Source: Anaerolineae bacterium CG2_30_57_67 (GTDB lineage: Bacteria > Chloroflexota > Anaerolineae > Anaerolineales > Villigracilaceae). From it: DNA of 64,000 nucleotides. Positions 31,092 to 49,320 of this stretch are shown here, piece after piece; position 1 is the stretch's first letter; each line of letters begins with the position of its first letter. A program made the translations under genes and the position numbers. Below the pieces are notes generated by a model. It did not search any database, was not told the origin of the DNA, and was given only the letters and a program-made list of their open reading frames with translations. The DNA lies in assembly GCA_001872455.1 (NCBI GenBank), contig MNXJ01000084.1, positions 1-64,000 of the forward strand. Reading direction: 5' to 3'.

Positions 31092-31661
31092 TTATATCCG
31101 CCAATACGCTCCGCTGCCGCCCTCGCGCGCCATCAGGCCACTGCCAACCAATTCGCGGCGCAAGGAGGCGGTATCTTCGTGAAAACGCGCCAATATTTCG
31201 TTGACTTGTTTCTCGCTGTAACGCGTCCCCGCATCGAAGGTCTGTACAACATGCCGCAAGATGGCCTCCAATTTTTTGCGCTGCGCCGGAATCGTTTTCA
31301 GGCGTCCATCTGGTAGGCTGAAAACGCGCACAACCTTGTGGTCATAGGCATTCACATCTACGCCATCAGCGGCGGCGCTCATTTGTGCCGGGGAAAGAAT
31401 GCGGCGTGAGAGCGCTTCCAGCGCCTGCTGGTCAAGGTGATAGACGCTGTAATAACCCTCGGCGCGGGCTGAAATCAGCCCGGTTTTGACCAGTTTGCCG
31501 AGGTGATGCGAAACGGTTGGGGCTTTGAGTTCCAGCAGCGCGGCCAATTCTTCCACGCTATATGCTTTTTGCGCCAGCAGGCCGATAATTTTCAGCCGGT
31601 TTGAGTCGGCCAGCGCTTTGAACAGGGTTACAAGTTCATCGGTAGTGTCTTCTGAATTCAT
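31092..31661 (-). CDS. ArsR-type winged-helix regulator with DUF2087-like C-terminal domain
   Basis: LFKALADSNRLKIIGLLAQKAYSVEELAALLELKAPTVSHHLGKLVKTGLI. Confidence 0.85.
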   Translation of the reverse strand: MNSEDTTDELVTLFKALADSNRLKIIGLLAQKAYSVEELAALLELKAPTVSHHLGKLVKTGLISARAEGYYSVYHLDQQALEALSRRILSPAQMSAAADGVDVNAYDHKVVRVFSLPDGRLKTIPAQRKKLEAILRHVVQTFDAGTRYSEKQVNEILARFHEDTASLRRELVGSGLMAREGGSGAYWRI

Positions 31662-31713
31662 TTTTGCCTTTTTAATTATATTATCTTCTAATTGATTTTA
31701 CCATAGTTAAAAC

Positions 31714-31745
31714 AAAAAGACGGCTCGACAACGAGCCGTCTTTTT
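31714..31745. terminator. Bidirectional intrinsic terminator
   Basis: AAAAAGACGGCTCG-ACAA-CGAGCCGTCTTTTT. Confidence 0.85.
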
Positions 31746-31759
31746 GCAAAAGGTGCGCG

Positions 31760-31882
31760 TCAGTGCGGCAAAATTACGCGCGAGTCGTCATAGTCTTGTT
31801 TGCGAAAGAGGATATTGACCAGGCTGATGGGCAGAAAAACCAGCATGAGCGCCAAAACGAGAATAACAAAAATGGGGTCCAT
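31760..31882 (-). CDS. 40-aa single-TM small protein MDPIFVILVLALMLVFLPISLVNILFRKQDYDDSRVILPH
   Basis: Below the ORF-track length cutoff; ATG with GGAG upstream, one hydrophobic helix, terminator just downstream. Confidence 0.55.
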   Translation of the reverse strand: MDPIFVILVLALMLVFLPISLVNILFRKQDYDDSRVILPH

Positions 31883-32011
31883 GAGAATGCTCCTTTCCAA
31901 ATCATTTCTACGCGCCAGATAAGAAAAAGACGTAAAAAATGTTGTTTTGTTCCATGCTTAATCAAACCCCATTTTGCTCCAAGAGGCGCATTACAGAAGC
32001 CTGACAGCGCC

Positions 32012-32254
32012 TCAACAAACCTGCAAGGTGGATTCTTCCACACCAATCCACAATGTGCCGGGCAAAATGGAACGCCAGGGGCGCACCGTCACCGGCCCGG
32101 CGACGCGCTCCGCGTCGGTCATCATGGCGGGATTCACGCGGCAAGCGTTGGGCGTTTTGCCATATTTGGCGCGAAAGTAGGCCGCCGCGCGCAACACTTT
32201 TTCATCCAGCGCCGTTTTGGGGTCGGGGTCAAACCACATCATGCCAATGTCCAT
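32012..32254 (-). CDS. 80-aa conserved-looking hypothetical protein, second gene of SOS-box operon
   Basis: AAAGGAG RBS; 15 bp after the upstream ORF stop; DEKVLRAAAYFRAKYGKTPNACRVNP. Confidence 0.6.
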   Translation of the reverse strand: MDIGMMWFDPDPKTALDEKVLRAAAYFRAKYGKTPNACRVNPAMMTDAERVAGPVTVRPWRSILPGTLWIGVEESTLQVC

Positions 32255-32269
32255 TTCAATTTCTCCTTT

Positions 32270-33049
32270 TTATGCGTTGGCGGAAAGCCAAAAGCGCAAC
32301 CATTGCGAGCGTTGACGCAGGCAAAACTCGTAGCACGGAAAAAGTTGGTTGAGCGGCGCGCCCGGCACGGGGGTCAGTTCTTCGTTCAGCGCCGGGTCGG
32401 CAATGCGGCCAAAAATGCGGGTGCGAAAGAAAGCCAGCCAATCGGGCAGTTTCGCGGCGCGCGCCGAATTGATGGCGGCCACCGGCCACAGCCGGGCACG
32501 CGGGCCGTATTCCAACAGATAAGTCAAGTTGGCGCGGGCATCGTCATCCAGGTGTAGGGCCGAATCGAGGCCGTCAATCAATAAAATCAGCGCGCGGCCA
32601 TCACCGCCGCGCTCCACCCATTCGGCCAGATGCGCCAGTAACTTGGCGGCGGAGGCAGCGTAAGCGGGAAAAACATTCAGACCGGTTTCGGCTTGCAGGG
32701 CGCTCCACTCGCTGGGAAAATCCGTCAGCGCAGTCAGCCCAACCGATTGAGGAGAATTCATGCGCGCGGTGGAGCGCGCCAGGCTCTGCAAGAAAAGCGT
32801 TTTGCCGCTGCCCCGGTCAGCAGTGACGAGCACCGCGCCCGTGGCGGGCTGGTCCATGCGTAAAAGCACGGGCAACCCGTCGCCGGCCACGCCAAACAGC
32901 GCCGCGTTGGGCGGAATGGGACCCATTTGCGCCAACACTTCCGCCAGGTGCGGGAAGACCACGCGCGCCGGGAGCGGTTCCGCGCCCAGCTCGGCTTGAA
33001 CTTCTTGTAAGGCGTGCAAGGCCAGCGCAAAGGTTTCATAACGAGGCAT
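32270..33049 (-). CDS. P-loop ATPase of unknown function (FtsK-like core), LexA-regulated candidate
   Basis: Walker A VTADRGSGKTLFLQSLA, Walker B ALILLIDGLDSAL; start MPRYETFALALHAL at 33049. Confidence 0.7.
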   Translation of the reverse strand: MPRYETFALALHALQEVQAELGAEPLPARVVFPHLAEVLAQMGPIPPNAALFGVAGDGLPVLLRMDQPATGAVLVTADRGSGKTLFLQSLARSTARMNSPQSVGLTALTDFPSEWSALQAETGLNVFPAYAASAAKLLAHLAEWVERGGDGRALILLIDGLDSALHLDDDARANLTYLLEYGPRARLWPVAAINSARAAKLPDWLAFFRTRIFGRIADPALNEELTPVPGAPLNQLFPCYEFCLRQRSQWLRFWLSANA

Positions 33050-33065
33050 AGGACATTCCATTGAC

Positions 33066-33107
33066 GAACATTTGTTCTATTATAATGGGGTTTTGACGTT
33101 ATTTCAA
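33066..33107 (-). promoter_or_regulatory. SOS box plus sigma70 promoter driving the 33049 ATPase gene
   Basis: Minus strand TTGAAA-N17-TATAAT followed by GAACAAATGTTC (perfect GAAC-N4-GTTC). Confidence 0.85.
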
Positions 33108-33119
33108 GAGGCAATTTCT

Positions 33120-33212
33120 GGTGATTACCCACAAGCCGCCAATTTTCGTCCTGCGGACAAAAGCGACATTTATGTCGCCTTGCAGGGTGGAGCAAAGATG
33201 TGGGGTATCACC
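33120..33212. repeat. MITE-like element copy 2 (TIR GGTGATTACCCACA...TGTGGGGTATCACC)
   Basis: Shares TIRs and internal sequence with 21326-21444, minus about 26 bp in the centre. Confidence 0.85.
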
Positions 33213-33317
33213 AGGTAATTTTTGGTGATTAAATTTTTCTAGCAGTTTGAATCAAGTACAATCAGTCGGTCTTCCAAAAAAACATTGTACAGACTGTTTA
33301 TTTCAAACCACCTTTTT

Positions 33318-48514: not shown

Positions 48515-49243
48515 TTACATCGCCCCGGACGCAATTTTGCGAATGACCATCACCACTTTGCCGCGAATTTCCAGCGGTTCTTCTTTTGGAATATAAATTG
48601 GTTCCATGGTCGGGTTGGCGGGCTGCAGGCGATAGCGGTTTTTCTCTTTGTAGAAATACTTGAGCGTGGTTTCGTCGCGTTCTGGCAACCAGACGGCCAC
48701 CATGTCGCCGTCTTTGGTTTCGGCGTTGCTGATTTGGCGCATGATGACGATATCGCCATCGTTGACCATCGCGTCAATCATGGAGGTGCCGCTCACTTCC
48801 AGCGCGAACAATTCCTCGGCTTTTTTGGCGGGCAACAGCGAGCGGGCGATTTCCACGCCTTCCTCCGGGCCGTAGTACGAAAAATCGGAGGCCGGGACCG
48901 GCATCGGCAGGCTGGCGCCAATTCGCCCGGCAAGTGGAATGCGGATCAGCTCGTTGATGGCTTGCGCCAGCGCTTGTACTGGCGCAGCAAAGGTGCTGCC
49001 CAGTTCAGCCAATCGTTCTGGCACGACGCGCATGCCGCGCGAAATATGCCGGTCGCGTTCGATATAGCCCCATTTTTCCAGCTGCTCCAGATAGTAGTTG
49101 ACTACTGAAGTGGAAGAAATGCCGGTTTGTTCGCCAATCTCCCGAATCGACGGGGGATAGCCTTTATCCTGGTGTTCACCAAGAAAACCAAGAATTTTGA
49201 TATGTCGTTCACCAAGGCCTTTGCTTTTTCGCACCATCATCAT
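48515..49243 (-). CDS. lexA: LexA repressor
   Basis: N-term wHTH ILGFLGEHQDKGYPPSIREIGEQTGISSTSVVNYYLEQLEKWGYI; peptidase VSGTSMIDAMVNDGDIVIMRQ. Confidence 0.95.
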   Translation of the reverse strand: MMMVRKSKGLGERHIKILGFLGEHQDKGYPPSIREIGEQTGISSTSVVNYYLEQLEKWGYIERDRHISRGMRVVPERLAELGSTFAAPVQALAQAINELIRIPLAGRIGASLPMPVPASDFSYYGPEEGVEIARSLLPAKKAEELFALEVSGTSMIDAMVNDGDIVIMRQISNAETKDGDMVAVWLPERDETTLKYFYKEKNRYRLQPANPTMEPIYIPKEEPLEIRGKVVMVIRKIASGAM

Positions 49244-49291: not shown

Positions 49292-49320
49292 ATCATACAC
49301 GAACATGCGTTCCATGTCAA
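49292..49320 (-). promoter_or_regulatory. lexA promoter with SOS box
   Basis: Minus strand TTGACA-N17-TATGAT; GAACGCATGTTC (49301-49312) lies in the spacer. Confidence 0.9.

Follow-up and report, generated by a model that had tools for sequence, protein, structure and literature searches.

A predicted LexA-controlled operon of an FtsK/EccC-type ATPase and a new 80-aa protein: a candidate SOS effector of Chloroflexota

The operon and the closest described systems

SOS division inhibitors mostly target FtsZ, as SulA does, or, in the case of small membrane proteins, late steps of division such as FtsW, and most of those recently described outside E. coli are small membrane proteins (PMC13396833). 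The 80-aa protein that is the subject of this study resembles SulA, YneA, SidA, SosA, ChiZ and DivS in being small, division-linked, lineage-specific and predicted to be LexA-controlled. It differs from them in that it has no sequence or fold match, no transmembrane (TM) segment and no LysM part. Also unlike SulA- or YneA-type inhibitors, its gene is often found with an FtsK-like ATPase and next to lexA, and a division block by its product is putative.

The partner ATPase finds its closest solved structures, by profile as well as by fold, among EccC/EssC proteins. Several domains of these proteins keep the ATP-binding site while their catalytic residues have degenerated, and the ATPase described here is alike in this respect. 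However, it consists of one domain rather than three or four, has no membrane or FHA part and no Esx substrate or secretion genes nearby, is encoded together with the 80-aa protein and appears to be SOS-controlled. A further parallel is offered by the imuA-imuB-dnaE2 mutasome cassettes, which are lexA-linked and encode a Y-family polymerase, DnaE2 and a RecA/ImuA-type P-loop protein. The present operon is likewise a small operon with a P-loop protein, beside or under lexA, but it contains neither a Y-family polymerase nor DnaE2, and its ATPase is of the FtsK type.

FtsK/SpoIIIE proteins share with the ATPase the P-loop motor fold, and its class-wide orthologues carry both FtsK_alpha and FtsK_SpoIIIE. 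Unlike FtsK, the module ATPase has no N-terminal membrane domain (263 aa leave no room for a 4-TM domain), and no FtsK_gamma was found in scans of this ATPase or of its class orthologues. In the family to which the analysed genome belongs, the alpha domain is missing as well, and so is the Walker-B glutamate. A connection of the SOS response with FtsK and with the dcw cluster is not without precedent: E. coli ftsK is listed among the SOS genes (PMC11002266), and an EMSA showed LexA binding to a box at mraZ of gut Firmicutes (PMC3998124).

The operon lies on the minus strand of a 64-kb stretch of DNA, referred to as the window. Its features, and those of lexA in the same window, are as follows.

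33079-33107, minus strand: sigma-70-type core promoter, with -35 TTGAAA at 33107-33102, a 17-bp spacer and -10 TATAAT at 33084-33079
33066-33077, minus strand: predicted LexA (SOS) box GAACAAATGTTC, one base past the -10 element and overlapping the expected transcription start; conserved at orthologues
32270-33061, minus strand: gene for a reduced 263-aa FtsK/EccC-type P-loop ATPase, with start ATG at 33061 or 33049
32012-32254, minus strand: gene for the 80-aa protein, 15 bp downstream of the ATPase ORF
31760-31900, minus strand: hydrophobic ORF of 46 aa (TTG start) or 40 aa (ATG start), lying past the 80-aa gene and before the terminator; regarded as a bystander
about 31719-31740, no strand: bidirectional terminator-like stem-loop GACGGCTCG-ACAA-CGAGCCGTC with A5/T5 flanks, read directly from the sequence
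48515-49243, minus strand: lexA, 16 kb from the ATPase operon
49292-49320, minus strand: lexA promoter TTGACA-N17-TATGAT, with the box GAACGCATGTTC at 49312-49301 within the spacer

A first-pass annotation had proposed that an ATPase and an 80-aa protein form a LexA-controlled operon. The elements on which it drew were all recovered, namely the promoter with the box immediately behind it, the 80-aa ORF 15 bp past the ATPase and the same motif at lexA. The promoter has 11 of 12 consensus matches and is the sole promoter-like site within 31600-33300, and the stem-loop is likely to mark the transcript end. The annotation had also allowed for a 40-aa membrane peptide as a further member. This ORF does exist before the terminator, but it was rejected as a third component because its conservation is restricted to the genus (four genomes, 49-65% identity), where it is found on other contigs than the operon. 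It probably encodes a real, independent small membrane protein.

Conservation of the LexA box

The 12-mer box pattern matches 2 times in the 64 kb, where 0.96 matches are expected, and at least 2 are present in 22 of 100 shuffles. This bare count is weak, and the case for LexA control therefore rests on promoter placement and conservation. Homologues of the ATPase were found in 48 of 61 relatives, mostly metagenome-assembled genomes, and in nearly all genomes of the window's family. Shortly upstream of 29 of the 30 ATPase loci that were fetched first, GAACN4GTTC is present with at most one mismatch. With gene starts approximated from profile matches, a perfect box was counted in 51 of 70 ATPase upstream windows (dinucleotide shuffles: mean 0.44, maximum 2 in 50 rounds) and near a gene start in 92 of the 108 motor-linked operons having enough sequence. 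The conserved layout in relatives is TTGACA-N16-18-TATAAT-ta-GAACNNNNGTTC-ta, where the box lies 7-9 bp past the first base of the -10 element, and a promoter-like pair accompanies the box in 22 of 29 ATPase loci, as compared to 2.6% of random positions. Four paralogous ATPases without an 80-aa gene have no box and serve as an internal control. The claim of the first-pass annotation was open to refutation by a box that was not conserved in orthologous operons; as the figures of 51 of 70 against 0.44 indicate, the box is conserved. This comparative evidence strongly supports the view that the operon is under LexA control.

A 2002 report is said to have described a gram-positive-type LexA box in Dehalococcoides. 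The regulon of the window genome was read around pattern matches. Intergenic perfect boxes are located at lexA, the ATPase operon, the divergent uvrB/rarA pair, mraZ and a TetR gene, and most other perfect boxes in this genome lie inside genes. recA (L305) has the one-mismatch form GAACATCTGTGC inside the promoter TTGACC-N17-TATACT, and the divergent uvrB/rarA promoter (L291) carries GAACGAACGTTC; together, these boxes would give the genome a core SOS regulon. The sequence GAACGTTCGTTC, located 15 bp ahead of the TetR-family gene (L289, G000:C22:75488), is probably the operator of this regulator itself and not a LexA box.

The start codon of mraZ (G000:C58:26877; L287, L306; loci L307-L335) overlaps a conserved palindrome, GAAC-NN-ATGTTC. 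All 27 parsed relatives have it with at most one mismatch (17 perfect, 8 GCAC, 2 GTTT), and the NN spacer varies. From this conservation, the dcw cluster of Anaerolineales would seem to be under LexA control. The conserved box at the start codon of mraZ is reminiscent of the gut Firmicutes case (PMC3998124), although the latter stems from a different phylum and concerns mraZ itself, not the ATPase/80-aa operon.

The two proteins and their gene neighbourhoods

The ATPase appears to be an FtsK/EccC-type motor domain of the FtsK-HerA group. Its Walker A and Walker B motifs (ADRGSGKT and ILLIDGLD) had been recognized in the first-pass annotation, but the view that it belongs to no obvious named family did not hold. 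Single-sequence scans against Pfam and NCBIfam returned only sub-threshold AAA, FtsK and EccC matches (17.7 bits for Pfam FtsK_SpoIIIE, with a cut-off of 24). However, a profile of 25 family members led to EccC/FtsK-type solved structures (4nh0, E=1e-16). The AlphaFold model (pLDDT 89.9) matches EccC domains and the FtsK motor domains of E. coli and P. aeruginosa with TM values of up to 0.69, and it is structurally similar to the conjugation protein TcpA. The class-wide orthologues, of about 350-420 aa, score above the Pfam cut-offs for both FtsK_alpha and FtsK_SpoIIIE.

The alpha domain is absent from the 263-aa ATPase and its family, and the Walker-B motif differs as well. By approximate counts with the motif picked by pattern, the residue after the Walker-B Asp is Glu in only 2 of 83 members of the window's family (Asp in 42, Gly in 24, Asn in 7), whereas a canonical Walker A together with the Walker-B D-E pair is present in 47 of 65 class-type orthologues. 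Since most members of the window's family retain Walker A, we infer that their ATPases bind ATP with weakened hydrolysis. Two candidate identities were rejected. Large FtsK-type proteins with strong FtsK_SpoIIIE domains are encoded by two other genes of the window genome (788 and 760 aa), and the operon ATPase is therefore not the housekeeping FtsK. A role in type VII secretion does not fit a single-domain ATPase that scores 18.5 bits with the EccCb model (cut-off 346), and no Esx- or WXG-type neighbours were present among the genes read around the loci.

Of the two proteins, the 80-aa one shows the stronger conservation, with a mean column identity of 49% as compared to 40% for the ATPase. 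It matches nothing in Pfam, NCBIfam, the PHROGs, PADLOC or the sequences in PDB, and in Pfam, NCBIfam and PDB it showed no relation to a known SOS division inhibitor. It has no TM segment, and tblastn against phage records gave no match. Fold searches with its AlphaFold model (pLDDT 87) yielded nothing significant in PDB or BFVD, and HK97-like and RidA-like matches were dismissed as noise. In samples of 299 genomes from the class and 251 from the phylum, the family was detected in 115 and 55, respectively. When 85,462 species genomes were scanned, 317 relatives were returned, and the 80 of these that were listed are from Chloroflexota except for one labelled Collierbacteria. The latter homologue (L179, E=1e-27) lies on a 61-kb contig labelled Candidatus Collierbacteria, beside tsaD and with no perfect box nearby; the Chloroflexota copies L340, L343 and L350 likewise adjoin tsaD. 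Among cultured organisms, Anaerolinea thermolimosa carries the module (L174).

Among 188 non-redundant 80-aa loci, 131 have a motor directly upstream, which is of the window's two-gene type in 75 and of the class type in 56. lexA lies upstream in 36 of the 56 class-type loci, where the gene order is lexA-(Cys-rich)-ftsK-like-(membrane protein)-80aa; two loci consist of lexA and the 80-aa gene only. A perfect box was also found at 13 of 36 lone 80-aa genes (0.06 in shuffles) and, outside the class, at most 100 bp upstream in 9 of 20 80-aa loci. The co-occurrence of the SOS box that the first-pass annotation had suggested looking for in other Chloroflexi is thus seen at motor-linked operons and at many lone 80-aa genes. 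As the 80-aa gene is often motorless yet boxed, it is the constant element, and the motor is a usual but dispensable companion. On these comparisons, the 80-aa protein appears to be the conserved core of the module and to represent a new small-protein family.

In many loci of the window's family, acpS lies downstream. In one family (f24), an additional 80-aa gene resides within the dcw cluster, in the order murF-mraY-[80aa]-murD-ftsW-murG; this copy between mraY and murD is boxless (L105, L121, L227, L230, L232, L234). At L336 an SOS box separates the 80-aa gene from the divergent mraZ-rsmH, and at L352 an mraZ with an SOS box lies about 0.95 kb away from it. Independent dcw events are few, and linkage to dcw genes can be regarded as certain in a single family (several genomes that probably reflect one event) and at one or two further loci.

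Several other arrangements were observed. In some class members, the FtsK-like operon is preceded by a pair of consecutive lexA-like genes, each boxed (L127, L134, L243, L251, L274, L284), and the boxes at these loci are often tandem, about 25-35 bp apart. The small membrane protein encoded between the FtsK-like and 80-aa genes (L136:2892-3284, L137:2761-3144) has two hydrophobic stretches by eye, no Pfam family and a weak holin-like PHROG match (E=0.002). The Cys-rich protein of about 140 aa encoded between lexA and the FtsK-like gene in several families (L134:5293-5715) has no Pfam or PHROG match. Boxless 80-aa homologues lie beside ParB-like, integrase or phage-like genes (L146, L149, L189, L240, L242), and the 80-aa family may thus be carried also by mobile elements.

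Possible functions of the module

The single reading that fits best is an SOS division/segregation checkpoint, because the 80-aa gene is linked to lexA, to FtsK-type motors and to dcw genes. We assign it a probability of about 0.5. The box, promoter layout, operon structure, ATPase family, spread of the 80-aa gene and synteny were established by comparison, and from these we infer LexA binding, induction, complex formation, a divisome target and an effect on division. LexA would sit on the start site just past the -10 element and block initiation. Upon DNA damage, RecA filaments would form and LexA would cleave itself and be released, so that the derepressed operon would yield the single-domain ATPase and the 80-aa protein. 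With ATP binding kept but neither the alpha domain nor the Walker-B glutamate present, the ATPase would more probably serve as a ring or scaffold that depends on ATP than pump DNA, and the 80-aa protein would be the actual effector. The pair would act on the division/segregation machinery, i.e. on septal wall synthesis and/or FtsK, and septation would be held until the chromosome has been both repaired and cleared. The equivalent task in other orders of the class may fall to an intact FtsK alpha+beta motor accompanied by a small membrane protein. Taken as a whole, this reading would amount to an ancient Chloroflexota checkpoint, in which a LexA-controlled 80-aa protein, usually paired with an FtsK-derived ATPase that repeatedly lost its catalytic residue, stops division or segregation by a mechanism other than those of SulA (FtsZ) and YneA/SidA (FtsW), for example by poisoning or bridging the FtsK ring and the wall-synthesis complex. 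In this full form, the proposal is tentative and should be considered somewhat doubtful.

The checkpoint reading is weakened by the small number of certain dcw linkages, by the absence of a TM segment from the 80-aa protein, and by those homologues that lack a box or lie in mobile-element-like surroundings. In addition, the class-type motors look catalytically intact, which a DNA motor would explain no less well than a division brake would. The FtsK-like ATPase might accordingly pump or remodel DNA, with the 80-aa protein as a loader or DNA-end adaptor, in tasks such as clearing proteins off breaks, moving septum-trapped DNA or helping recombination. This view draws on the FtsK alpha domain and the canonical motifs that class-type orthologues keep (47 of 65), on the lexA linkage and on the listing of E. 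coli ftsK among SOS genes (PMC11002266). Nevertheless, we consider it unlikely, because the window's family has kept the operon and the box with D-E in 2 of 83 members and the alpha domain gone, because the 80-aa gene is motorless in many genomes while having its own SOS box, which argues that the motor is not the core, and because the scanned orthologues have no FtsK gamma domain. Of the functions suggested in the first-pass annotation, division arrest and DNA translocation both fit the data, and nothing points to mutagenesis.

DinI, a protein of 81 aa, modulates RecA and LexA cleavage in E. coli. The size of the 80-aa protein, its predicted SOS control and the frequent direct linkage of its gene to lexA would be compatible with a DinI-like feedback regulator that modulates RecA filaments or LexA cleavage with assistance from the ATPase. 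However, none of 30 members matched the DinI family in Pfam and no DinI fold match was found in PDB, so that DinI identity was rejected; this idea also leaves the FtsK-type partner and the dcw copies unaccounted for, which makes it improbable.

Even less probable is that a HerA/FtsK-type ATPase and a small partner from a defence system or mobile element were put under SOS control. Class-type motors do show weak similarity in PADLOC to SspH and Mads8, which contain FtsK/HerA-type domains, the ATPase resembles TcpA in structure, and some 80-aa homologues adjoin ParB-like, integrase or phage-like genes. Yet the chromosomal synteny is conserved (acpS downstream in many family loci), presence in the family is near-universal, lexA is linked, the operon has no nuclease, SIR2 or similar effector, and tblastn found no match in phage records. 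Known defence systems were rejected, given that the 80-aa protein has no PADLOC match and the window ATPase reaches only E=0.0014 with mads_8. Lastly, that the box is accidental and the operon an ordinary constitutive ATPase gene pair has a negligible probability: the 12-mer is expected about once per 64 kb and the perfect matches in this genome are mostly intragenic, but orthologues keep the box at a fixed promoter position far beyond shuffles, and the boxless paralogues provide an internal control.

The comparative evidence supports the suggestion in the first-pass annotation that this could be a new SOS effector. The operon would represent a clade-specific one, in which a member of a new small-protein family is combined with an ATPase derived from FtsK. 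A search of mainly open-access literature on LexA or the SOS response in Chloroflexota and on lexA-ftsK links in Anaerolineae turned up no account of the module. Chloroflexota gain a clade-wide candidate SOS effector, in which LexA is tied to an FtsK-type motor by direct operon linkage, and a new small-protein family comes with a clear prediction, namely division or segregation control. This idea is testable, since A. thermolimosa is cultured and carries the module. Moreover, the decay of a motor inside an operon that has itself persisted along with its SOS box would offer a natural case of an FtsK-type ATPase passing from pump to switch.
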